From assembly GCF_000973085.1 (NCBI RefSeq), contig NZ_CP011280.1, forward strand, positions 398,642 through 462,641: 64,000 nucleotides of DNA, read 5' to 3'. This document shows positions 37,150-55,584 of the stretch, piece by piece (the first letter of the stretch is position 1; every line of letters begins with the position of its first letter). Under the pieces are notes generated by a model that worked only from the letters and a program-made list of their open reading frames with translations, made no database searches and was not told the DNA's origin. A program made the position numbers and the translations under genes. Origin of the DNA: Sneathia vaginalis (GTDB taxonomy: Bacteria; Fusobacteriota; Fusobacteriia; Fusobacteriales; Leptotrichiaceae).

Positions 37150-39189
37150 ATGAATAAACAGAATCGATATAAAATAAGTAACAATTCATTTTCTGCAATA
37201 AATGATAAAGAAATATTAATTGTTGAAGAGTGGGGAGTAGATGCTATTAGAGTCTACTCATCACCTAAAAATAAAAAAATTAAAAATGAATTTGGAATTA
37301 AAGAGTTAAAAAAAAATGAAAATTCAAATTTTAAAATAATACAAAATGGAGATATTATTGAATTTATAAATGGCAATTTAAAAGTTGAATATAAAGATAA
37401 TAAATTATTTTTTTATAATAAAAATCAATTAATTCTAGAAGAATATTCAAGAAAACAAAGTAATGTTAGAAGGACTATTGGAATAGATGATGATGTTAAA
37501 ATAGAATATAAGCCATCATATTCATTAAATATTTCACCAAGGGAATTTAAAAAAAATTATAAGGATTCGTTTGAGTCAATACAATTATTTGAGACTGATA
37601 TAAACGAGAAAATTTTTGGAATGGGTTCTTATGCAGAGGAAAATTTGAATAAGAATTTAGGAATGTATGAATTAATGCAAAGAAACTCACAAACTACAAT
37701 ACCTTTCTATATTTCAAATAAAAATTATGGTTTTTTATGGAATGGTTCATCGATAGGTAATGTATCATTTAATAAAAACTATAAAAAATGGGTAAATAAT
37801 AATACCGAATGTATAGATTATGTTGTAATTGTTGGAGAAAATCCAAAAGATATAATTGAAAAATATACTTTTATGGTTGGTAGAGCACCAATAATTAAAA
37901 AAGAATTATTAGGTCTTTGGCAAAGTAAACTAAGATATCAAACAACTAATGAAGTTGAATCAATATATAATGAATACTTAAATAGGAAAATAAAACCTTC
38001 AGTAATTGTTATAGATTATTTTCATTGGACTGAAGATGGAAATTTTGAATTTGATGATAATTATTGGAAAGATATAGATAAATTGTCAAAAAAAATGAAA
38101 GAAACTAACACTGAATTAATGGTTTCTGTTTGGCCAACTGTTAGTAAAAATTCAAAATATTATAATTATTATAAAAATAATAAGATGTTATTAGAACCTA
38201 GAGATAATAAATCAAAAATATTTGATAATAAAGATATTCTTGACTTCTATAATGACGAAACAAAAAAATTCGTCTCAAATTTATTAACAAACAATTATAA
38301 AACCAAGAATATTAAATTATTCTGGGCAGATCAAGCAGAACCTGAAATGAATATATATGAGCAAAGAGAGTATAATACTTCAAAAGGAAATTTTGAAAAA
38401 ATGGCAAATAGATATCCTTATGAGTATTTAATGACAATACCTAGAGAAGAAGGATATCCAGTATTAATAAGATCTGCATGGTTTAATTCACAAAAAGAAG
38501 GAAGTCTTGTTTGGTCTGGGGATATAGATAGTTCATTTAAATCTTTAAGAGAACAAATACAAATACTAATTAGTATGGGACTATCAGGAATCTCTTGGAG
38601 CACAACAGACATAGCAGGTTTCCATAGTGGAGATTCAACTACACAAAAATTTAAGGAATTAATGATTAGATGGTTTCAATTTGCTGTATTTAGTCCAGTT
38701 TTAAGAATGCATGGGGATAGACAACCTCATAGTCAAAAAATTGGTAAAACAGGAGGAGGAGTAAGAACAAGTGGATCTAGTAATGAAATTTGGTCATTTG
38801 GAACAGAAGTTGAAAGAATCTTAACAAAATATATTAGAATTAGAGAAAAATTAGTTGATTATATATTTAAATTATATGAAGAAAGTACAAATTTTGGTTA
38901 TCCAATTTCAAGAAGTTTATTCTTTGAATTTCCAAATGATAAAAAAGCTTGGGACGATAGACTTTCGTATATGTTCGGAAGTGATTTACTCATAAGTCCT
39001 GTTATTGATTTTGAAATGAAAAAAATGAAGGTTTATTTACCTGATGGAAATGATTGGATTAACGTATTTAATAATAAAGTTTACAAAGGTGGTAAGGATT
39101 ATATAATAGAATTTAGTTTAGAAACTTTACCAGTATTTTGTAAAAAAGATAGCTATTTAGCTAAAAAAATAAATTATATTTTTAATTAA
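37150..39189 (+). CDS. Glycoside hydrolase family 31, alpha-xylosidase-like (2)
   Basis: 679 residues, a diverged paralogue of the previous gene (same GLWQSKLRYQT, VIVIDYFHWTEDG, LVWSGDIDSSFKS and RMHGDRQPHS blocks; nucleophile region LFWADQAEPEMN). Cytoplasmic. Two tandem family members with different active-site neighbours suggest they cut different linkages or steps of one oligosaccharide. GGAG precedes the ATG. Confidence 0.87.
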   Translation: MNKQNRYKISNNSFSAINDKEILIVEEWGVDAIRVYSSPKNKKIKNEFGIKELKKNENSNFKIIQNGDIIEFINGNLKVEYKDNKLFFYNKNQLILEEYSRKQSNVRRTIGIDDDVKIEYKPSYSLNISPREFKKNYKDSFESIQLFETDINEKIFGMGSYAEENLNKNLGMYELMQRNSQTTIPFYISNKNYGFLWNGSSIGNVSFNKNYKKWVNNNTECIDYVVIVGENPKDIIEKYTFMVGRAPIIKKELLGLWQSKLRYQTTNEVESIYNEYLNRKIKPSVIVIDYFHWTEDGNFEFDDNYWKDIDKLSKKMKETNTELMVSVWPTVSKNSKYYNYYKNNKMLLEPRDNKSKIFDNKDILDFYNDETKKFVSNLLTNNYKTKNIKLFWADQAEPEMNIYEQREYNTSKGNFEKMANRYPYEYLMTIPREEGYPVLIRSAWFNSQKEGSLVWSGDIDSSFKSLREQIQILISMGLSGISWSTTDIAGFHSGDSTTQKFKELMIRWFQFAVFSPVLRMHGDRQPHSQKIGKTGGGVRTSGSSNEIWSFGTEVERILTKYIRIREKLVDYIFKLYEESTNFGYPISRSLFFEFPNDKKAWDDRLSYMFGSDLLISPVIDFEMKKMKVYLPDGNDWINVFNNKVYKGGKDYIIEFSLETLPVFCKKDSYLAKKINYIFN

Positions 39190-39206
39190 AATGAAAGGAT
39201 ATAGAT

Positions 39207-39683
39207 ATGGGAATAAAGTTAGCAAGAATTGATGAAAGATTAGTACACGGTATAGTTGTAACTCAATGGACAAGTACAACAAATGCACAAAGAATAATGG
39301 TTATAGATGATGTTGTAGCAGAAGATGAGATGAGAAAATCAGCTATGAGAATGAGCAAGCCATCAGGAGTTGGTATGTCACTTATTAATGAAAAGACAGC
39401 AATAACTAATATTAAAGCTGGTAAATATGATAATCATAATGTTTTATTAGTTGTTAATAATGTTGAAGTATTAGTAAGATTGGCAAAAGAAGGTATTAAA
39501 ATACCTAAAGTTAATATAGGTATTATGTTAGATAGACCTGAGCGTAAAAAATATGAAAAAAGTTTTGCAGCAACAGAAAATGAATTACAATTATTAAAAG
39601 AACTTGAAGATATGGGAATACCAGTAACTTATCAATTTGCACCTTCTGATAAAGAAGTATCATTAAAAGAATATTTAAAATAG
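39207..39683 (+). CDS. PTS mannose-family EIIB component (first system)
   Basis: 158 residues; the phosphorylated His is expected at residue 14 in RIDERLVHGIVVTQW. Typical IIB-Man/Sor length and fold (RIMVIDDVVAEDE). It accepts phosphate from the EIIA at 41297 and passes it to the sugar during transport. The genes IIB-IIC-IID-IIA follow each other here. Confidence 0.94.
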   Translation: MGIKLARIDERLVHGIVVTQWTSTTNAQRIMVIDDVVAEDEMRKSAMRMSKPSGVGMSLINEKTAITNIKAGKYDNHNVLLVVNNVEVLVRLAKEGIKIPKVNIGIMLDRPERKKYEKSFAATENELQLLKELEDMGIPVTYQFAPSDKEVSLKEYLK

Positions 39684-39701
39684 GAAAAGGAGATTAAAAT
39701 T

Positions 39702-40493
39702 ATGCCAAGTATTTTACAAGATATATTAATTATATTACTTCCAATGTATGCCTTAATAGATAATCGTGGTATCACAATAGTTAACCACTGGCCAGTAACA
39801 GTTGGGTTCTTTGCAGGGTTAATAATGGGAGATTTACAATCAGCATTAGTTATAGCTGGAACATTTCAATTAATGAGTTTAGGAGTAGCTGCTTTAGGTG
39901 GATCATCAGTACCTGATTACGCTCTTGCTACTGTAGTTGCAATATATTTAAATGCTAGAACTGGAGCTACAATAGGGACAGCTGTTGCTATTGGATTACC
40001 AGTTGGTATAATAGCAATAAATCTAGATGTATTAACAAGAACATTAAATTCATTTGTTTCTGAAAAGGCAAAACAATATTTAGAAAAGAAACAATTTAAA
40101 AAGATGCAAAATGTTAACTTTATAAGTGTATTCTTTGTTTCTATGCAAGCATTTATTCCTATGATTATACTAGTTGTATTTGGACCAACAGCTGTAGAAA
40201 CTATTATAAAGATAACACCTGATTGGTTTACAAATGGTTTAAATATTGCTGGAGGAATGCTACCAGTAGTTGGGGTTGTAATGTTAATGCGTTATATGCC
40301 TACAAGTCGTTATATTTGGGCATTATTAATTGGGTTTGTAATTGCTGCGTATATGAAATTACCAATATTAGCAATTTCTATAGTAGGATTTGCATTAGGA
40401 GTTTATGTTTACAAAGATATGATATCTAAAAAGCAAATGGTAACAAATAATACCGAAGCAGTTTATGAAGGAGGAGTTGATTTTGATGAATAA
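39702..40493 (+). CDS. PTS mannose-family EIIC component (first system)
   Basis: 263 residues with about seven membrane helices; family blocks GLIMGDLQSALVIAGTFQLMSLG and ARTGATIGTAVAIGLPVG. Forms the sugar channel with EIID. AAAGGAG precedes the ATG; the end overlaps the IID start by eight bases. Confidence 0.94.
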   Translation: MPSILQDILIILLPMYALIDNRGITIVNHWPVTVGFFAGLIMGDLQSALVIAGTFQLMSLGVAALGGSSVPDYALATVVAIYLNARTGATIGTAVAIGLPVGIIAINLDVLTRTLNSFVSEKAKQYLEKKQFKKMQNVNFISVFFVSMQAFIPMIILVVFGPTAVETIIKITPDWFTNGLNIAGGMLPVVGVVMLMRYMPTSRYIWALLIGFVIAAYMKLPILAISIVGFALGVYVYKDMISKKQMVTNNTEAVYEGGVDFDE

Positions 40494-41292
40494 TGGAATA
40501 AAATTATCTGAAAAAAATAAAAAAAGAGCCGTTTGGAAATTTTCTTTCATAGGTGCTAACAATTTAAATTATGGGACTTTAATGGGGACAGGTTATGCTT
40601 GGGCTGTTGCTGATCCACTAAGAGAAATATATAAAAATGATGAAGATTATCAAAAAGCAATGAGAATGGAACATGAATATTTTAATATTACACCATATAT
40701 GGGACCACTTGTAATCGGAGCAGATTTAGCAATGCAAGAAAAAGAAGGACTAGAATCATTAAATGCTGTAAGATCTATTAAAACTTCATTAATGGGACCT
40801 TTATCTGGTATTGGAGATTCATTATTATGGGTATTATATCCTACAATAATGGGATCAATTGCAGGTTATATGGCGTTAGATGGGAATCCATTAGGTGCTA
40901 TAATATGGATGTTATTGAATTTAACGCTAATACTTTTAAGATTAAAATTGTTTGAAATTGGATATAATTCAGGTGTTAGATTAATTACTGATTTATCTGA
41001 TAAATTAAGTGCAATAACAGAAGGTGCTTCAGTAATGGGGTTAACAGTAGTTGGAAGCTTAATTGCTACTGTTGTAAGAGTAAAATCTCCTATTGAGTTT
41101 AAATTTGGAGAAGTCGTTTTAAATCTACAAACTGGTATTTTTGATAAGATTTTACCTGCATTATTACCAGTTACTTTAACTGGAATAGTATACTATTTAA
41201 TGGAAAAAAGAAAATGGGGATTCTTAAGAGTTATACTAACTATAGTTGTATTCTCATTAATAGGATCATACTTTAAAGTTTTAGGAGCGTAG
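40486..41292 (+). CDS. PTS mannose-family EIID component (first system)
   Basis: 268 residues from ATG 40486; GGAGG lies upstream (an ATG at 40465 belongs to the IIC end). IID-type features: AVWKFSFIGANNLNYGTLMGTG, a cytosolic segment, then ALxGPLSGIGDSLLW-like SLMGPLSGIGDSLLW and C-terminal membrane helices. Pairs with EIIC in the membrane. Confidence 0.93.
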   Translation: MNNGIKLSEKNKKRAVWKFSFIGANNLNYGTLMGTGYAWAVADPLREIYKNDEDYQKAMRMEHEYFNITPYMGPLVIGADLAMQEKEGLESLNAVRSIKTSLMGPLSGIGDSLLWVLYPTIMGSIAGYMALDGNPLGAIIWMLLNLTLILLRLKLFEIGYNSGVRLITDLSDKLSAITEGASVMGLTVVGSLIATVVRVKSPIEFKFGEVVLNLQTGIFDKILPALLPVTLTGIVYYLMEKRKWGFLRVILTIVVFSLIGSYFKVLGA

Positions 41293-41296
41293 CTTT

Positions 41297-41716
41297 ATGA
41301 AAAAAATTATTGTTGCAAGTCATCATAAGCTTGCTAATGGATTTAAGAACACATTAGAATATATTTTGCCTAATACAGTTGAAATAATTGACATTAGTGC
41401 TTATTTAGAAAATGTTTCAGTTGATAAACAAATTGATGAAGTATTAAGTAATTTTACTAAAGAAGAGCAAATCTTTGTATTTACTGATATACCAGGAGGA
41501 TCTGTTAATCAAGCTTTTATAAGAAGATTAAACGATTATAATATAGAATTAATTTCTGGAACAAATTTATCAATTTTAATTTCAATAGCTACTCAACTTG
41601 GGGAAAAAAATATTGATAAAGATACTATTAGAGAAGAAATAATAAATGCTGCTAGTGAAATTGTTTATGTAAATGATAAATTAGCAAGTCAATCTTTAGA
41701 TGAAGATGACGAATAA
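41297..41716 (+). CDS. PTS mannose-family EIIA component (first system)
   Basis: 139 residues; His9 in IVASHHKLANG is the expected phosphorylation site, and FVFTDIPGGSVNQ is the family DLxGGSP-like region. Takes phosphate from HPr and gives it to EIIB. Ends in an acidic tail. Confidence 0.92.
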   Translation: MKKIIVASHHKLANGFKNTLEYILPNTVEIIDISAYLENVSVDKQIDEVLSNFTKEEQIFVFTDIPGGSVNQAFIRRLNDYNIELISGTNLSILISIATQLGEKNIDKDTIREEIINAASEIVYVNDKLASQSLDEDDE

Positions 41717-41735
41717 AAAAAAATAGGAGAATTTT

Positions 41736-44120
41736 ATGTATATTGAAAAGTATAATGATTTTAATCCTTTGGCTAATCCAAAATCGATTATTATTGGAAA
41801 AGGATATAGAATTACCTTATTAACATCAAAATTAGTAAGATTAGAATATTCAAAAAATAATATTTTCGAAGATGCTAGAACTAAAATGGTTATAAATAGA
41901 AATTTTCCTGAGGTTTTATATGAAATTTATGAAGATGAAAACTCTCTTAAAATTATAACTAAAGATATAACTCTTAGATATAACAAAAGAGAGTTTTCTC
42001 CTTATGGACTAAGTATAGAATTAAACGGGAAAACAAAACATCCTTACAAAGAGATTTGGCACTTTAATGATAAATTAAGTAACCTTGGTGGAACAAGAAG
42101 AACACTTGATTTTATAGATGGAGAAGTTGAATTAGATGATGGAATTTTATCAGAGTATGGAATTAGCGTAATTGATGATTCTAACTCTCCAATACTTCTA
42201 GAAAATGGATGGTATGAGGATAGAAATTCTAATGAAATAGATTTATATGTTTTTGCTTACAAAAGAAATTATAAGGAAGCATTGAAAGATTTTTTCTTGT
42301 TAACAGGACCACAACCAAAATTACCTAGATATGCTCTTGGAAATTGGTGGAGTAGATATTATCCATATAATGAAAATAGTTATAAAGATTTGTTAGAAAA
42401 ATTTGAAAACGAAAAACTACCATTTTCTGTTGCTGTATTAGATATGGATTGGCATTTAGTTGATATTCCTGAAAAATATGGAAGTATTTGGACAGGTTAT
42501 ACTTGGAATCACGAGTTATTCCCGGATCCTAAAAGATTTATTGATTATATTAAAGAAAAAGGCTATAAAATAACATTAAATGTACATCCGTCAGCTGGAA
42601 TAAGACCGTTTGAAATAATGTATAGAGATTTTGCTAAAGCTATGAATATTGATCCTAATAAAGATTTATACATTGATTTTGACCATAAGTCAAAAACATT
42701 TTTTGAAAATACATTTAAATATTTATATAAACCAAATGAAGATATTGGAGTTGATTTTTGGTGGATAGATTGGCAACAAAGCCCAACAAAAATAGATGAA
42801 AATAAAGATCCATTATGGGTATTAAACCATTATCACTATAATGATAATAAAAAAAATAATAATATTGGATTAACTTTCTCAAGATATGCTGGACCAGGAA
42901 GTCATAGGTATCCAGTTGGTTTTTCTGGAGACACTGTAATAAGTTGGGAATCTCTAGATTTTCAACCATATTTTACATCTACAGCATCTAATATAGGTTA
43001 TGGATGGTGGAGTCATGATATTGGTGGTCACAGACATGGTTATAGGTCAGATGAATTAACTTTAAGATGGATACAGTTTGGAGTATTTTCTCCTATAAAT
43101 AGATTACATAGTTCAAATTCTGAATTTATAGAAAAAGAACCATGGAATTTTAAAGAACCATATAAAACAATAATAGTAGAATATTTAAGATTAAGACATG
43201 AGTTGATTCCATATACATATACTATGAATGTTATTGCAAATACTGAAAATATTCCATTAATTAGACCTATGTACTATGAATATCCAGAAAATAAAGAAAG
43301 TTATAAAGTAAAAAATCAATACTATTTTGGATCTGAACTTCTAATTTGTCCAATTACTAAGAAAATAAATGAAGAATCAGAAATGGCTGAATTCAAAGCA
43401 TGGTTACCTAAAGGAAATTGGTATGATCTTCAAATAGGGTTAAAGTATAGTGGTAATAGGAATATCACTATAAATAGAGGTATAGAAAACTTAGGTATAT
43501 TTTTTAAAGAAGGGTCAATTATACCATTAGCAAAATTAAAAGAAAGAATTAATAATATTGATAATCCTGAAAATCTAAGAATTATTATTGGTTCTGGAGA
43601 TGATGGTGAATTTAACTTAATAGAAGATAATAAAGATAATCTATCAAATGTTGAATCAGTAACTACAAATTTTAAATATTTAGAAAATGATAGTAAAATT
43701 TTAATTCATAAGGCTGAAGGAAATATAAATGTTATTCCTAGATATAGAAGTTTTGAATTTAATATATATGGAAAAAAAATAAAAAAAGTTATGATTAAAA
43801 TTAAAGATAGTATTAGAGAAATAGGAACAGAATATAATTTTAAAAAGAATATAACAAGTTTTATAATTAGGGAAATACCTATAAATGAAAATGTTGAAAT
43901 TACTTTTGAATATGATGAAGCTGTTTTTGATTCAAAGACTCAAAAATTAGATATTATTAAAAAGTTTCTTAAAAAATCACAAATGAGTAATGTAGATAAA
44001 GATGAAATATATAAAATTTTAGTAGCTAATAAAGATTATAAAACAACTATATCTGAAATTTTAAATTACGATACTAGCTTAGCAATAAAAAATGTTTTAT
44101 TAGAAATTATTTTAGCATAA
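41736..44120 (+). CDS. Glycoside hydrolase family 31 (3), alpha-glucosidase/xylosidase type
   Basis: 794 residues, cytoplasmic, of a different GH31 subgroup from the two upstream. Blocks: GNWWSRYYPYNENSY, FSVAVLDMDWHLVDIP, GYTWNHELFPDPKRFIDY, the nucleophile region VDFWWIDWQQSP (Asp), FSGDTVISWESL (acid/base region), GYGWWSHDIGGHRHG. A C-terminal beta domain and about 80 extra residues follow (KKVMIKIKDS onward). It could cleave the glucoside part of the imported sugar. Last gene of the first sugar operon. Confidence 0.87.
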   Translation: MYIEKYNDFNPLANPKSIIIGKGYRITLLTSKLVRLEYSKNNIFEDARTKMVINRNFPEVLYEIYEDENSLKIITKDITLRYNKREFSPYGLSIELNGKTKHPYKEIWHFNDKLSNLGGTRRTLDFIDGEVELDDGILSEYGISVIDDSNSPILLENGWYEDRNSNEIDLYVFAYKRNYKEALKDFFLLTGPQPKLPRYALGNWWSRYYPYNENSYKDLLEKFENEKLPFSVAVLDMDWHLVDIPEKYGSIWTGYTWNHELFPDPKRFIDYIKEKGYKITLNVHPSAGIRPFEIMYRDFAKAMNIDPNKDLYIDFDHKSKTFFENTFKYLYKPNEDIGVDFWWIDWQQSPTKIDENKDPLWVLNHYHYNDNKKNNNIGLTFSRYAGPGSHRYPVGFSGDTVISWESLDFQPYFTSTASNIGYGWWSHDIGGHRHGYRSDELTLRWIQFGVFSPINRLHSSNSEFIEKEPWNFKEPYKTIIVEYLRLRHELIPYTYTMNVIANTENIPLIRPMYYEYPENKESYKVKNQYYFGSELLICPITKKINEESEMAEFKAWLPKGNWYDLQIGLKYSGNRNITINRGIENLGIFFKEGSIIPLAKLKERINNIDNPENLRIIIGSGDDGEFNLIEDNKDNLSNVESVTTNFKYLENDSKILIHKAEGNINVIPRYRSFEFNIYGKKIKKVMIKIKDSIREIGTEYNFKKNITSFIIREIPINENVEITFEYDEAVFDSKTQKLDIIKKFLKKSQMSNVDKDEIYKILVANKDYKTTISEILNYDTSLAIKNVLLEIILA

Positions 44121-44362: not shown

Positions 44363-45538
44363 TTAATAAATAATAGCGAATCTACTTTTCATATTTCTGT
44401 TGTACTCCCCTATAATAACAATATTATTTTCTTTATATATAAAATTATTATTTTTTCTAATAAAATTAACAATATTTAAGTATAGATTTTCTTTTGTATT
44501 GTGTTGGTACATATCAGGATTGATGATAATATATTCAATTATATTTAACGTAAGTTTTATAAATTTATTATTTAATTTTTTACAATCTTTTATTGATCTT
44601 AAAATCATATCCCTTTTATTTTCATAGACATTTTCAATATAAATAATAGGTTGTTTATTAAATTCTTTAAGTTTATTATTAAAATTATTATTATATAAGT
44701 CATTGTTTATAGTAGTTTTAATATCTAGTTCTTGTAATAAAGCGTACTTAAAATTATTTTCAACAAATGTTTTACCGTATTTTGATATAGATTCTTTTAA
44801 ATATTTGAACATTATTTCTTTATCTTCTGTGTTAAGATTTAAATTATGGATCATTCTTGAAGTAGAAATTTCAATTAGTGAATCATATTTATTCTTAATA
44901 AAGAAAATAATAGAAGTAATATTTCTTTGATTTTTCTTTTTAACCTTTATATATTCAATGTTTATATTTTTATATTTCTTTATTTCATTAATAGATTTTT
45001 TTAAAATATTTTTTTCAAAATCATAAAATCTAGAATATTCTTTATTAATAGACAAAATATCTTTTAATAGAGATAAATCTATTTCAACAATATTGTCAAA
45101 GATATGATTATCATAAAGATATGTATAAAGATTAAATGTATGATTTTTAAATAGTATTCTATTATCAAATCTTGCTAATTTAAAATCGTTGTAAGAATCA
45201 TTAAAGATATTTATTAAATCTTGAGATATTTTAATACTAAAAATATTATTTCTATAAGAAAAACTAGAAATTATTCTAATAATTCCCTTATTTTCAAAAT
45301 TCAATTTTGAGGATTTATAAATAAAATATTTTTTTGAAAAATTTATAAAAAAGTTAAACCAATCATTATCAATATCTAATTTATATTTAGAATTTAATTT
45401 TTCTTCAAGAAGTTCAATATAATAAGTACCATATCTAATATTTTTAATGATATTTTTAAATAATTGAGACTCAATTTTATTAAAATTTTGATTAAGTTTT
45501 ATATAATCATCAGTAGAAAAAAATTTTTTTTTATTCAT
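44363..45538 (-). CDS. Rep_3/RepB-type plasmid replication initiator
   Basis: 391 residues, extremely Asn/Lys/Ile-rich. The central part has the Rep_3 winged-helix pattern: FKNHTFNLYTYLYDN, SLLKDILSINKEYSRFYDFEKNILKKSINEI, followed by KNINIEYIKVKKKNQRNITSIIFFIK. This is the YxRFYDFEKNxL...AxxEI...G/Rxxx.xF signature of theta-plasmid initiators. In a plasmid it would bind iterons and start replication. Here it lies among chromosomal genes, divergent from a PTS operon. The upstream gap (45539-45732) is extremely AT-rich with two copies of ACGAAAAAAAAT (45576-45587, 45663-45674) but no clear iteron array. Confidence 0.8.
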   Translation of the reverse strand: MNKKKFFSTDDYIKLNQNFNKIESQLFKNIIKNIRYGTYYIELLEEKLNSKYKLDIDNDWFNFFINFSKKYFIYKSSKLNFENKGIIRIISSFSYRNNIFSIKISQDLINIFNDSYNDFKLARFDNRILFKNHTFNLYTYLYDNHIFDNIVEIDLSLLKDILSINKEYSRFYDFEKNILKKSINEIKKYKNINIEYIKVKKKNQRNITSIIFFIKNKYDSLIEISTSRMIHNLNLNTEDKEIMFKYLKESISKYGKTFVENNFKYALLQELDIKTTINNDLYNNNFNNKLKEFNKQPIIYIENVYENKRDMILRSIKDCKKLNNKFIKLTLNIIEYIIINPDMYQHNTKENLYLNIVNFIRKNNNFIYKENNIVIIGEYNRNMKSRFAIIY

Positions 45539-45575: not shown

Positions 45576-45674
45576 ACGAAAAAAAATATGTATATTTTCT
45601 TCAGCAAATTTATATTATTAATATTATAACTCATTTATAAAAATAATCAATAATTGTAAAAAACGAAAAAAAAT
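45576..45674. repeat. Two 12-base repeats in the AT-rich rep-PTS gap
   Basis: ACGAAAAAAAAT at 45576-45587 and 45663-45674, 87 bases apart in the same direction. Possible initiator sites or chance in AT-rich DNA. No good promoter pair is seen for either divergent gene. Confidence 0.4.
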
Positions 45675-45732
45675 TAAAATTTTACTTTTTAAATTTTTGT
45701 TGTAAACTTCTATAAAAGAGGAGGTGATTATA

Positions 45733-46152
45733 ATGTTTGGAATAGTTGTTATTGGTCATGGTAAATTTGCTTCTGGAATAACAAGTAGTTTAAATTTATT
45801 AATTGGTAAATTAGATAACTATGTAGCAATAGATTTTTTAGAAAATGATGATATAAACACATTAGAGATTAAATTTAAAGAAAATCTTATCAAGTTAAAG
45901 GATTGTAAAAAAATAGCGATATATACAGATTTAAGAGGAGGTACTCCATTTAATATTGCTATTAAAGAAAAAATAATAAATGAAAGGTTAGAAGTAATAG
46001 GGGGAGCTAATTTAACTTCAATAATATCTTTTGCTATGGGAAGACTTTTATCCGAGAATTTCAATGAAATGATTAATAATAGTATTATTGAAGGAAGAGA
46101 AGAACTCTTGATATATAATAATATAATTGAAAACAATAATTTTGAAGAATAA
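45733..46152 (+). CDS. PTS mannose-family EIIA component (second system)
   Basis: 139 residues from ATG 45733 with AGGAGGTGAT upstream. His9 in VVIGHGKFASG is the phosphorylation site; IYTDLRGGTPFNIA is the conserved second motif. First gene of the second PTS operon. Confidence 0.94.
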   Translation: MFGIVVIGHGKFASGITSSLNLLIGKLDNYVAIDFLENDDINTLEIKFKENLIKLKDCKKIAIYTDLRGGTPFNIAIKEKIINERLEVIGGANLTSIISFAMGRLLSENFNEMINNSIIEGREELLIYNNIIENNNFEE

Positions 46153-46182
46153 TTTAAAAATGTGTGTGTGGGGGAGATTATT

Positions 46183-46995
46183 ATGAGTTTATTACAAGCT
46201 TTTCTAATAGGGATATTTGCCTATTTGGGTTGTAAACGTACGCCATGGTTTTTTGGGATAACAGGTGGTTGGAATATGATTGGAAGACCTTTAGTTGCAG
46301 GTTTGATTGTTGGAATAATTTTGGGCGATGTAACTAATGGTATAATTGCAGGTGCTATGGTTCAAGCATTATTTATTGGACAAATAACACCTGGTGGTGC
46401 TATGCCAGCTGATGTAAACTGGGCTTCATATATTGGAATACCATTAGCGTTAGCTGCTGGTGGTGGAGGAGCTGAAGCTGTTGCATTATCAGTACCATTA
46501 AGTTTATTAGGATTAGGAGTATTTAATTTTATAATGACAATTAATACTTATTTTCCTTTATTAGGTGATAAGGCTGCTAGCAAAGGAGATGGAAGAGGTA
46601 TTCATAGAGCAACATATTTAGCGGCAGTACCAAGTGCAATTTTAAGAATAGGTTCAGCATTTCTAATTTGTTATTTTGGAACACCTTTTGCAGAATCATT
46701 AATTAGTGCAATGCCATCTCAAGTACTTCATTTCTTTGAAGTTGCTGGAAGAATGTTGCCAGCAATTGGATTTGCAATGTTATTAAAACAATCATTATCC
46801 AAAACTTGGATGATAGTATTATTTTTATTAGGTTGGGTATTAATGATATCAACAAGTATGACTATAACAGCTCTTGCGACATTTGCTTTAGCAATAGCAT
46901 TTATATTTGTTAAATCTGAAGGAAATAGCCAAAATATAGTTACTAATGTTGATAATAATACATTAAATGTGGAGGATGATTGCTATGAAGACTGA
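46183..46995 (+). CDS. PTS mannose-family EIIC component (second system)
   Basis: 270 residues from ATG 46183 (GGGGGAGAT upstream). Membrane protein with LVAGLIVGIILGDVTNGIIAGAMVQALFIG and TPGGAMPADVNWASYIG, close to the agalacto/sorbose-type IIC group. Several helices follow, with an acidic tail overlapping the IID start by 11 bases. Confidence 0.94.
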   Translation: MSLLQAFLIGIFAYLGCKRTPWFFGITGGWNMIGRPLVAGLIVGIILGDVTNGIIAGAMVQALFIGQITPGGAMPADVNWASYIGIPLALAAGGGGAEAVALSVPLSLLGLGVFNFIMTINTYFPLLGDKAASKGDGRGIHRATYLAAVPSAILRIGSAFLICYFGTPFAESLISAMPSQVLHFFEVAGRMLPAIGFAMLLKQSLSKTWMIVLFLLGWVLMISTSMTITALATFALAIAFIFVKSEGNSQNIVTNVDNNTLNVEDDCYED

Positions 46996-47818
46996 TGAAA
47001 GAAAAAAATTAACTAAAAAGGATATAAGAAAAGCTGCATGGTCATATATTTTCTTTGGACAAGCAACACAAAATTTTGAGCGTATGATGGGACTTGGATA
47101 TTGCCATGTTATGGAACCAATACTCAAAAAATTATATAAAGATGACAAAGAAGAATACATAAAAGGATTACAAAGACACATGCAATTTTTTAATACAGAG
47201 TCACAATTAGGTTCAATAATACCAGGTATTACAATTGCAATGGAAGAGTCAAGAGCTAATGGAGAAGATGTTTCTGAAGAATTAATAGTAAATACTAAAA
47301 ACGCATTAATGGGGCCTTTTGCAGGTATTGGTGATTCTATGTTAATAGGAACTTGGAATCCTATTTTACTTAGTATTGGAATGGGTATGTGTATGTTGGA
47401 TGGAAACCCAATGGGTCCAATATTTTTCATGATAACATGGTTGCTTTCAGTACTTGCTTTACAATTATATCTATTCCACAAAGGGTATGAAATGGGAATA
47501 GGTCTTGCTAATGAATTTTTTAGTAATAAAGAATTAGCTAATAAAATTTCAAAAGGTTTAACAACGGTTGGTCTTGTTATCATAGGTGGTGTTGCAGCAA
47601 CAACCGTTAGAGCAAAAGTTATTTACTCATTTGTTAGTGGAGAAATGAAAATACCATTACAATCACAAATATTTGATAGAATAATGCCTACTTTATTACC
47701 GCTAATAATAACATTAGTAGCATGGTATTTAATGGATAAAAAGAAATATAAACCAACAAGTTTAATTTTATTTGTTATAATATTTGCAGCGATTATGGTT
47801 CTTTTAAAAATAATGTAA
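46985..47818 (+). CDS. PTS mannose-family EIID component (second system)
   Basis: 277 residues from ATG 46985 (GGAGGA upstream). Family blocks AAWSYIFFGQATQNFERMMG, ALMGPFAGIGDSMLIGTWNP and C-terminal helices with LIITLVAWYLMDKKK. Pairs with the upstream EIIC. Confidence 0.94.
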   Translation: MKTDERKKLTKKDIRKAAWSYIFFGQATQNFERMMGLGYCHVMEPILKKLYKDDKEEYIKGLQRHMQFFNTESQLGSIIPGITIAMEESRANGEDVSEELIVNTKNALMGPFAGIGDSMLIGTWNPILLSIGMGMCMLDGNPMGPIFFMITWLLSVLALQLYLFHKGYEMGIGLANEFFSNKELANKISKGLTTVGLVIIGGVAATTVRAKVIYSFVSGEMKIPLQSQIFDRIMPTLLPLIITLVAWYLMDKKKYKPTSLILFVIIFAAIMVLLKIM

Positions 47819-47827
47819 GGTGATTTG

Positions 47828-48310
47828 ATGGAAATAGTTAATATAAGAATAGATGATAGATTAATTCATGGCCAAGTTGCTACAGTATGGATTAAATTTA
47901 CAAAAGCAACAAGAATTATGGTTATAGATGATGAAGTTGTTAAAGATCAAATAAATAAAGAAGCCTTAAAAATGGCTTGTCCAAAACAGTGCAAATTATC
48001 AATATTAACAGTTGAAAAAGCAGTTAATAATATAAATGAGAGCAAATATGATGGTGAAAGAATTTTTGTGATTGTAAAAGGGCCAAAAACATTATGTAAA
48101 TTATATGATGCTGGCTTTGATATTAAAGAGTTTAATATAGGAAATATGGCTGGCAATTTAAATACAAAGATGTTAGTAAAATCAGTAAGTGTAAGTGAAG
48201 ATAACATAAAAGATTTTTTATATTTAGATACTAAAGGTATTAAAATAACAGCACAAATGGTTCCGTCTGATGAAAAAATTAATTTTATAAAAATAATAAA
48301 GGAAGTATAG
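47828..48310 (+). CDS. PTS mannose-family EIIB component (second system)
   Basis: 160 residues from ATG 47828 (AAGGTGA upstream). His14 in IRIDDRLIHGQVATVW is the expected phosphorylation site; IMVIDDEVVKDQ follows. Gene order IIA-IIC-IID-IIB differs from the first PTS, so this is a separately acquired system. Confidence 0.94.
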   Translation: MEIVNIRIDDRLIHGQVATVWIKFTKATRIMVIDDEVVKDQINKEALKMACPKQCKLSILTVEKAVNNINESKYDGERIFVIVKGPKTLCKLYDAGFDIKEFNIGNMAGNLNTKMLVKSVSVSEDNIKDFLYLDTKGIKITAQMVPSDEKINFIKIIKEV

Positions 48311-48312
48311 TG

Positions 48313-50181
48313 ATGGAAAGTATAAAAAAAATAAATGAATTTGGAGAGTTTATAATAAACTATAATAAAGAAATTATTGCTGATGGTGAATTAGAATGGA
48401 ATATTAGAATAAAGTTAAATAAATCTTTAAAAAAAGGTACTAAATTTAAAATTACTTTCCCTGCATATGCTCATCAAAGATCAATAGAATATGTACAAAA
48501 TATAGACTATTGGAAACCACATTTTATATATGCATATTTTGATTATGAGAAATCTAAGTTAAAAACAAAAATAGAAAAAATAAACTCTGAATTTTCACAT
48601 GTTTTAAGATGGCCTGATAGTACTAGAATTGCTATTGTTGAAGCAATAACAGATTGGGCAAAAGATGATATCTTAAATATTTATTATGGTGGTATAAATA
48701 GAATGTGGTTAAAAGGTTATGCTCCAGCAACAAGATGTATGAATCATGTTACATTTAAAAATGGAACATATTTAAAATATAAAATTGAAATAGCTGAATC
48801 TGGAAATGAAGAGTTTAAACAATTAAATGTATTTCCTGAAATTAAAGTAATACCAGATAAAGAAAAGTATTTACTAATTAAAACACCATTAGTAATTGAA
48901 AAAAATAAAGAATATGAAATAAAATATATGTATAGTGATAAATTTAAAAATCCAATTTGGGATAATAAAGAGTGTCCAAAATTAATGTTGAAAAATTTAT
49001 TAACAGGAGAAATATCTGAATTGGTTAATAATAAATTTACAGTTTATAACTCTGGTTATTATGAAGTTGATGCTATTACAGATTTAATATGCGAGAAATC
49101 AATAAGTGTATGTAAGGATAATCAAAAAAAAATTTACTTTGGAGATACCCATGCTCATTCAATTTTAACACCTAATATTAAAGACAATAATAAAGGCGGT
49201 TGTGTGGATGATGCCTATGAGTTTGCAAGAGATGCTAGGATGATAGATTTCTTAGCCTTAGTTGAACAAACATTTTTATTCGATGAAAATGAAAGACAAA
49301 ATGTAACAAAAAAAATCTGGGAAGTAATGGGAAAATATTCAAATATATATAATGAAGATGATAAGTTTGTAACATTTCCTGGATTTGAATTTCATAGTCC
49401 TAGAGGAGATACTGTTGTAATTTTAGGAGAAGATATTGAAAATTTCGAATACCCTAAAGGTGCAATTGACATAGGAGATATATGGGACAAATTTAAAAAT
49501 AAAAAATATTTATCAATTCCACATTTTCATCGTTATTGTGGTGGAAGACTTCATAAAGATGAGCAAGATCAAAAAAATACAGGATTTGATCTAAAAAAAT
49601 GGGAAAGAAATGATGAAGCTGAGGTTTTATGTGAATTCTACTCAGGTCAATGGGGAAGATTTGAATATCCTAAAAATCCAATGCTTTTAAAAGCTATGTC
49701 AAATATTGATGATAATACGGTGACATCATTTTTAAATAGAGGTAAAATGTGGGGAGTGACAGCTAGTAGTGACGACCATGATTTAATGCCAGGTCATGCA
49801 GGTTTAACATTTGTATATTCAGATAAATTAAGAAGACCAGATATTTTTAATGGATTGAAAAGAAGAAATACTTATGCTTCTACATATACAAGAGTTTTTC
49901 TTGATTATAGAATTAATGAAGTCTTGATGGGTGGAATATTAAAATATGATGAGATTAATAAATTAAATATAAAAATAAACTTAGTTTCTCCTGTAGAAAT
50001 TAGGACTTTTGAACTTATTGTAAATGGTGAAATTTTTATTGAAGATAATGTAAAAAATCAACTTGATAAAAGAGATATTGAAATTGATAAAAAAGATATA
50101 GTTAAAAATAGTTATATTTATGTTAGATATAAACTAGAAGATGAGAATATCATAATAAGTAGTCCAATTTGGATAAAATAA
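48313..50181 (+). CDS. DUF3604 PHP-like metallo-hydrolase at the end of a PTS operon
   Basis: 622 residues, no signal peptide. Residues ~1-270 form an N-terminal beta-rich domain; then the DUF3604 PHP-like core: KIYFGDTHAHSILTPN (metal His residues), ARMIDFLALVEQ, FVTFPGFEFHSPRGDT, IPHFHRYCGG, and the later WGVTASSDDHDLMPGHAG and RRNTYAST. PHP proteins are metal-dependent phosphoesterases or related hydrolases; some DUF3604 members are found with polysaccharide-utilisation genes. Here it would act on the phosphorylated sugar from the adjoining PTS, which is inference. ATG 48313 is two bases after the EIIB stop. Confidence 0.82.
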   Translation: MESIKKINEFGEFIINYNKEIIADGELEWNIRIKLNKSLKKGTKFKITFPAYAHQRSIEYVQNIDYWKPHFIYAYFDYEKSKLKTKIEKINSEFSHVLRWPDSTRIAIVEAITDWAKDDILNIYYGGINRMWLKGYAPATRCMNHVTFKNGTYLKYKIEIAESGNEEFKQLNVFPEIKVIPDKEKYLLIKTPLVIEKNKEYEIKYMYSDKFKNPIWDNKECPKLMLKNLLTGEISELVNNKFTVYNSGYYEVDAITDLICEKSISVCKDNQKKIYFGDTHAHSILTPNIKDNNKGGCVDDAYEFARDARMIDFLALVEQTFLFDENERQNVTKKIWEVMGKYSNIYNEDDKFVTFPGFEFHSPRGDTVVILGEDIENFEYPKGAIDIGDIWDKFKNKKYLSIPHFHRYCGGRLHKDEQDQKNTGFDLKKWERNDEAEVLCEFYSGQWGRFEYPKNPMLLKAMSNIDDNTVTSFLNRGKMWGVTASSDDHDLMPGHAGLTFVYSDKLRRPDIFNGLKRRNTYASTYTRVFLDYRINEVLMGGILKYDEINKLNIKINLVSPVEIRTFELIVNGEIFIEDNVKNQLDKRDIEIDKKDIVKNSYIYVRYKLEDENIIISSPIWIK

Positions 50182-54480: not shown

Positions 54481-55584
54481 ATGTTAAAAGCATATAAATA
54501 TCGGATTTATCCAAGTAAAGAGCAAGAAATACAGTTGGCAAAGACATTTGGCTGTTGCCGTTTTGTATATAATCAAACCCTTGCATATAGAAAAGATGCT
54601 TATGAAAAAGAAAAAAACTCTATCAGTAAAACAGACTGTAATAATTATTGCAATAGAGAGCTGAAAAAAGTTTATGAATGGCTGAAAGGAGTAGACAAAT
54701 TTGCTTTAACAAATGCGATTTATCATATGGATAGTGCTTATAAAAATTTTTTCAAAGAGCATGCAGGTTACCCAAAGTTTAAGAGTAAACACGATAGGCA
54801 TAAATCCTACACAACTAATTTTACAAATGGGAATATAACTGTAGATTTTGATAGAGGAAGAATAAAGTTGCCAAAGTTAAAAAAGATAAAAGCAAAAATT
54901 CATAGGAATTTTGCAGGGCAAATAAAATCGGCAACTATATCACAACTGCCGAGTGGAAAGTATTATGTAGCAATCTTAGTAGAAACAGAGAATGTAAAAA
55001 AGCAGGAGACAAGAGGTAAAATAGGTTTAGATTTGGGGATAAAGGATTTGTGTATTACATCAGATGGGAGAAAATACGAAAATCCAAAGACAATAAAGAA
55101 GTATGAGAGAAATCTTACAAAATTTCAAAGACAGCTTGCACATAAAATAAAAGGGAGCAGGAACTATCAGAAAAAAAGAAAGCAAATAGCATTATGCCAT
55201 GAGAAAATAACAAATACCAGAAAAGATTATCTTCATAAGATTTCAAGTGAAATAATAAGCGAAAACCAAGTGATTGTTTCAGAAAACTTGCAGATAAAAA
55301 ATATGATAAAAAACCATAAATTGGCTAAGTCTATAAGTGACGTTTCATGGTATGAGCTTACAAGACAGCTAGAGTATAAAGCAAAGTGGAACAATAGAAT
55401 ATATGTTAAGGTAGATAGTTTTTACGCAAGTAGTCAGTTATGTTCTTGTTGTGGTTTCCAAAATAAGGAAATAAAAGATTTATCCGTAAGGCAATGGAAA
55501 TGTCCAAATTGTGGGGAAATACACGATAGAGATGTCAATGCCGCAAAGAATATATTAGCAGAAGGATTAAGAAAAATAGCGTAA
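54481..55584 (+). CDS. tnpB: TnpB RNA-guided nuclease (IS605 OrfB family)
   Basis: 367 residues, full length. N-terminal helix-turn-helix ([20 protein letters not shown]), RuvC-like motifs with Asp184 (GLDLGIKD), Glu268 (VSENLQIKN) and Asp351 ([11 protein letters not shown]), and a zinc ribbon CSCCG...CPNCG. Known biology: TnpB uses an RNA from the element's right end (omega-RNA) to cut DNA next to a target-adjacent motif, helping the element persist. All catalytic residues are present, although the partner TnpA is dead. Confidence 0.95.

Follow-up and report, generated by a model that had tools for sequence, protein, structure and literature searches.

A mannose-family PTS operon ending in a DUF3604 gene in Sneathia vaginalis, and its possible role in the use of sulfated hexosamines

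The genome of Sneathia vaginalis, a member of a small fusobacterial genus, is a single contig of 1,330,224 bases, and the 64-kb stretch of it analysed here (the window) contains five plus-strand genes at 45733-50181 that encode a mannose-family phosphotransferase system (PTS) followed by a protein of the DUF3604 family. A possible role for these genes, to which we assign a probability of roughly 40%, is that a hexosamine bearing a substituent, probably a sulfate, enters through the PTS and loses that substituent to hydrolysis by the cytosolic DUF3604 protein; we infer both the substrate and the reaction. The five genes would then form one catabolic operon. Its PTS would take up a hexosamine carrying a substituent and a free 6-hydroxyl group and phosphorylate it at C6, and the substituent would most probably be an N- or O-sulfate, as in N-sulfoglucosamine (GlcNS). 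The metal centre of the DUF3604 hydrolase, which would be the single processing enzyme of the operon, would activate water and free the substituent, which in the favoured version is sulfate, so that an ordinary hexosamine 6-phosphate could pass into central metabolism.

Organisation and recurrence of the operon

The five genes lie in the order IIA-IIC-IID-IIB-DUF3604, with overlaps or gaps of at most 10 nt in the list of open reading frames (ORFs). All four PTS subunits match their Pfam hidden Markov models above cutoff: EIIA (45733..46152; PF03610 EIIA-man, 65 bits), EIIC (46162..46995; PF03609 EII-Sor, 203 bits), EIID (46967..47818; PF03613 EIID-AGA, 295 bits) and EIIB (47825..48310; PF03830 PTSIIB_sorb, 175 bits). 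The EIIA gene has an ATG at 45733, with a GTG at 45724 also open, and an GAGGAGGTGAT resembling a ribosome-binding site immediately 5' of its start. Inspection of the translations revealed the phosphorylatable histidine motifs IGHG in IIA and LIHGQ in IIB, the latter within the phosphorylation motif DDRLIHGQ. The top NCBIfam models were AgaF for EIIA and AgaW for EIIC, each scoring below its cutoff, and for none of the window subunits did an NCBIfam equivalog model of PTS specificity (mannose, GalNAc, sorbose and others) reach cutoff. With the IIB stop codon finishing at 48310 and the DUF3604 gene likely starting from an ATG at 48313, these two genes are probably translationally coupled. An earlier, sequence-only reading had described this arrangement as a gapless run ending in a 622-residue DUF3604 protein, with no accompanying glycosidase or kinase, and the ORFs, coordinates and profile matches agree with it; no glycosidase or kinase gene is present in the five-gene run. 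It had also called the operon the second mannose-family PTS of the window, and the first is indeed found at 39207-41716, while a third is present elsewhere in the genome (C1:1105171). The first belongs to an operon (37150-44120) with the order IIB-IIC-IID-IIA, bordered by two genes resembling GH31 glucosidases.

Genomes of 98 Fusobacteriota, 389 bacteria and 329 Bacillota, as well as plasmids and viral contigs, were searched for close relatives of the DUF3604 protein; a LepA tree served solely for choosing the genomes to sample. A scan of genome contigs returned mostly Azospirillum paralogues. No comparably close homologue was found in the 97 other Fusobacteriota genomes, and a close relative linked to a PTS came only from the Bacillota search, with none in the Fusobacteriota, the 389 bacteria, the plasmids or the viral contigs. 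In that Bacillota genome (G588) a LevR/DagR-like regulator is followed by IIB, IIC, IID, IIA and two DUF3604 genes, A and B, of which the first is the best match found to the window protein, at about 28-32% identity across the catalytic part. The transporters are more alike: the window EIIC is 51% identical to that of G588 and 53% identical to that of a second Bacillota genome (G584), and the window EIID is 52% and 50% identical to those of G588 and G584, respectively, with all other IIDs in the 389 genomes at 42% or less. No second A-type gene was found in the family, order or class of G588.

Genes of the B type are more widespread, relatives of G588-B with 47-55% identity occurring in 12 of the 98 Fusobacteriota genomes. 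All 12, from five genera, lie in an operon with a PTS EIIBC of the glucose/GlcNAc family (Glc/NagE-type), and in Cetobacterium the type-B gene adjoins nagE. If a genome holds at most a few dozen enzyme II genes, adjacency to one by chance would be expected at about one percent per locus, and linkage in five genera is therefore far beyond chance. In one fusobacterial genome (G074, L103/L106) the type-B gene is split into two ORFs, through a frameshift or an assembly error, within a PTS-NanE-DUF3604-sulfatase operon.

It could be argued that the genes merely happen to be neighbours in this strain and that the DUF3604 protein belongs to some other pathway, given that among the 329 Bacillota sampled a single genome showed the pairing with this PTS subfamily and that the remaining Fusobacteriota genomes showed none. 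We consider this very improbable in view of the tight coupling at 48310/48313, the pairing of a related PTS with DUF3604 in G588 and the PTS linkage of the sister clade, type B, at 12 of 12 fusobacterial loci. The adjacency is thus not unique to the strain; since Bacillota show the pairing again with a related PTS, and all fusobacterial type-B loci have a PTS as well, it exceeds chance, and we conclude that it is real and meaningful. The sequence-only reading knew of no described pathway in which DUF3604 acts on a PTS product, and the literature searched here contains none either, its one mention of DUF3604 being in a paper whose title concerns another subject.

Family and metal site of the DUF3604 protein

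The 622-residue protein matches PF12228 (DUF3604) with 43.4 bits against a gathering cutoff of 20.4. Its N-terminal region (about residues 2-270, 48313..49119, plus strand) has no Pfam match and, judged by eye, no hydrophobic signal peptide, for which reason the protein is probably cytosolic. The catalytic, PHP-like region (49120..50181, plus strand) was delimited by PF12228, by ligand conservation in 49 DUF3604 proteins and by a profile match to the PHP-like phosphoesterase PDB 3e38. That match was obtained with a profile built from nine homologues (E 6e-4); no direct PDB relative of the protein was found by sequence, and an AlphaFold2 model from 14 sequences had a pLDDT of 42, too low for use. 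Putative metal ligands are D279 (49144), H281 (49150), H283 (49156), E360 (49387), H405 (49522), D488 (49771) and H490 (49777). In the profile alignment six of these, H281, H283, E360, H405, D488 and H490, pair with residues that are established metal ligands in the PHP superfamily. The protein thus contains the PHP metal-ligand set HxH (H281xH283), E360, H405 and DxH (D488xH490), which bears out the metal-binding motifs of PHP/DUF3604 type noted from the sequence. H281, E360, H405 and D488, together with E442, S445 and S618, are invariant in all 49 proteins; D313 is kept in 48, and D279 and H490 in 46, so that the putative ligands D279, H281, E360, H405, D488 and H490 are each conserved in 46-49 of the 49. 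In place of TDH, the second PHP motif, the window protein has VEQ; type B lacks TDH as well.

Hydrolysis of phosphoesters is common chemistry in the PHP superfamily, and the protein could be a phosphatase or phosphodiesterase whose target is either the phosphate group on the PTS product or a sugar in phosphodiester linkage. The tie to 3e38 agrees with this, as does one relative that matches PF02811 (PHP) just over cutoff. We nevertheless think it quite unlikely, since the TDH motif is lost, since removing the phosphate from a fresh PTS product would waste phosphoenolpyruvate, and since a homologue in Bacteroides finegoldii, with a Tat/lipoprotein-like N-terminus, would work outside the cytosol on unphosphorylated sugars.

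Slightly less unlikely is a deacylase or a carbamoyl or ester hydrolase that strips an acyl-type group from the imported sugar in the manner of CehA/McbA. The CehA/McbA domain model (NF038032) is the best NCBIfam match of the protein, and the metal site has an HxH pair in both. In CehA, which hydrolyses carbamate esters, this pair is His313 and His315, two of four histidines important for activity (PMC8292978), with the spacing of H281 and H283. Several plasmid-borne relatives, moreover, adjoin ABC importers and not sulfatases. However, the score of 46 bits falls short of the cutoff (80), CehA and McbA are plasmid-borne pesticide hydrolases without a PTS context, and the PTS-linked DUF3604 loci contain sulfatases and NanE rather than esterases or acyl-sugar genes.

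The Bacteroides heparin locus and the probable substrate

A more specific indication of substrate comes from Bacteroides. The heparin/heparan sulfate locus BT4661-BT4652 of B. thetaiotaomicron encodes, in order, SGBP, SusC, SusD, GH88, PL12, S1_11, BT4655, a kinase, a transporter and PL15 (PMC9067506). In B. finegoldii we found the order SGBP, SusC, SusD, GH88 (DUF4995/PF07470), HepC, SGSH_C sulfatase, DUF3604, ROK, MFS and DUF4962/heparinase. This gene order mirrors that of B. thetaiotaomicron, so that by gene order alone, without the BT4655 sequence, the DUF3604 protein occupies the BT4655 position. When BT4655 is deleted, GlcNS remains in the medium (PMC10154612; PMC9067506), and its product, termed a novel sulfatase family, has not been predicted to depend on formylglycine (PMC11980591). 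As BT4655 is genetically implicated in removal of the N-sulfate from GlcNS, the protein in the same locus position would be expected to remove a substituent. The DUF3604 ligands are also conserved in the B. finegoldii protein. In a tree of the 49 proteins this protein and type B form one clade (support 1.0), outside which the window protein and G588-A are poorly resolved branches. The BT4655 function may therefore extend to type B with moderate weight, and to the window protein with low weight because it lies outside that clade. The two systems also differ in that the BT4655 system is extracytoplasmic and has no PTS, while the window protein belongs to a deeply diverged other branch and has an extra N-terminal region. 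A second point of comparison is the N-sulfamidase Phep_2826 (S1_8) of Pedobacter heparinus, which performs the proposed chemistry. Sulfatases with SGSH_C are present in the DUF3604/PTS operons, but Phep_2826 is an S1-type (formylglycine) sulfatase and not a DUF3604 protein.

Genes surrounding related PTS or DUF3604 genes are consistent with such a substrate. The fusobacterial type-B operons encode NagE- or glucose-type permeases, NanE-type N-acetylmannosamine-6-phosphate epimerases (5/12 loci), TauE sulfite exporters and sulfatases (8/12 loci), the last matching SGSH_C (N-sulphoglucosamine sulphohydrolase, C-terminal) and having no apparent signal peptide. The PTS locus of G584, whose IIC is the nearest among 398 Bacillota, has no DUF3604 nearby; it encodes a GntR regulator, a protein in which IIA and IIB are fused, and a sulfatase that shares 54% identity with its fusobacterial counterpart and whose maturase may be a divergent radical-SAM/SPASM protein beside it. 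In two further genomes a related mannose-family PTS is accompanied by NanE and SIS (G716) and NanE adjoins a type-B DUF3604 gene (G717). With SGSH_C-type sulfatases, NanE and TauE near these genes, the recurring theme speaks for sulfated hexosamines and not for dephosphorylation. Two other loci were recorded in the survey: a large-genome relative (G009, L087:8177-14044) has a mannose-family PTS operon that lacks DUF3604 but encodes two sulfatases as well as a radical-SAM protein resembling a maturase, and in G078 (L016:8157-11684) a divergent DUF3604/PHP protein lies beside a sulfatase and a radical-SAM protein in a region resembling one for polysaccharide degradation, without a PTS.

PTS-based import of glycosaminoglycan disaccharides in streptococci offers another model, in which the DUF3604 protein would take the place of GH88 and split an imported uronate-hexosamine disaccharide at its glycosidic bond. 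In the streptococcal clusters the PTS is accompanied by an unsaturated glucuronyl hydrolase that acts in the cytosol (PMC5430744), and the window operon likewise joins a PTS, with AgaF and AgaW as best models, to a putative cytosolic processing enzyme; it has no GH88 gene of its own, and a relative lies in a heparin locus. On the other hand, the window operon contains neither a lyase gene nor Dhu/Kdg genes and encodes a DUF3604 metallohydrolase instead. We know of no PHP-type glycosidase. Replacement of GH88 was marked down once a GH88 domain appeared in the B. finegoldii locus, where a DUF3604 gene is also present, and we judge this cleavage improbable. Of the activities first suggested from the sequence, namely dephosphorylation or cleavage of an imported sugar-phosphate and action on a uronate or sulfated sugar, the sulfated sugar has thus gained from the neighbouring genes and the BT4655-position gene, while the neighbourhood makes dephosphorylation less favoured and the GH88 protein of the B. 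finegoldii locus makes uronyl cleavage less likely.

It has been argued for glycosaminoglycan disaccharides that C6-sulfated sugars are unfit for a PTS (PMC5430744), and GlcNS would suit PTS chemistry because its 6-hydroxyl is free. Mannose is not metabolised by Sneathia amnii (now S. vaginalis) despite its complete "mannose" PTS (PMC3535699). The hyaluronidase of S. sanguinegens, in turn, is missing from S. vaginalis (PMC13393775). One may speculate that S. vaginalis scavenges monosaccharides freed by its neighbours, which would fit.

Several observations count against the proposed role in the use of sulfated hexosamines. To our knowledge no assay of a PTS-linked DUF3604 enzyme has been made. 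The nearest PTS-linked homologue of the window protein shares only the 28-32% identity given above, and since G588 encodes both types, A and B probably differ in specificity, removing different groups or acting at different positions. The window protein, a long branch, does not fall in the clade that type B and the B. finegoldii protein form; its TDH motif is replaced, and its operon contains no sulfatase, lyase or epimerase gene. Finally, the B. finegoldii protein is equated with BT4655 through gene order and not sequence, and BT4655 itself is biochemically uncharacterised (PMC11980591).

A candidate regulator and the wider meaning of the operon

Divergent from the operon, on the minus strand, is a gene for a Rep3_C protein of plasmid-initiator type (44363..45538; PF21205, 39 bits). 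A paralogue with 31% identity (L085:11805-13049) is divergent from the third mannose-family PTS operon of the genome. Exact ACGAAAAAAA sites occur just twice in the window, both on the plus strand of the Rep3/PTS intergenic region, at 45576..45585 and, 87 bp from the first, at 45663..45672, and are candidate operators. Since 5 of 100 shuffles also gave at least two such sites per window, their number by itself is weak evidence and it is their placement that stands out. In the other Rep3/PTS intergenic region a pair of ACGAAAAAA sites (L085 11678-11686 and 11764-11772) is spaced at 86 bp, and the ACGAAAAAA(A) pairs in both regions share a spacing of 86-87 bp and an equal orientation towards the PTS. 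Elsewhere in 162 loci no ACGAAAAAA pair at that spacing was found, except in a second copy of the window region. The Rep3-type protein is accordingly a candidate regulator of the window operon, and the two regions suggest that plasmid-type initiators have been co-opted as local PTS regulators. At 54481-55584 the window also contains a TnpB/OrfB-type gene of the IS605 family (with a Cas12f1-like TNB domain), without an obvious adjoining tnpA.

A broader proposal, possible though rather doubtful, is that DUF3604 proteins are formylglycine-free, metal-dependent sugar sulfohydrolases (sulfamidases), and that PTS operons ending in one constitute an undescribed route in Fusobacteriota and Bacillota by which N- or O-sulfated hexosamines are phosphorylated on uptake and desulfated in the cytosol; the window operon would be a minimal, probably horizontally acquired version of it in a small genome of urogenital type. 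If this were true, it would provide a function for a large family that has so far had none, and the missing sulfamidase of heparin catabolism in gut Bacteroides (BT4655) would be a member of a recognisable metallohydrolase superfamily. It would also mean that sulfated amino sugars can be used through a PTS without formylglycine maturation, and it would account for the presence in Sneathia of a "mannose" PTS without growth on mannose (PMC3535699).

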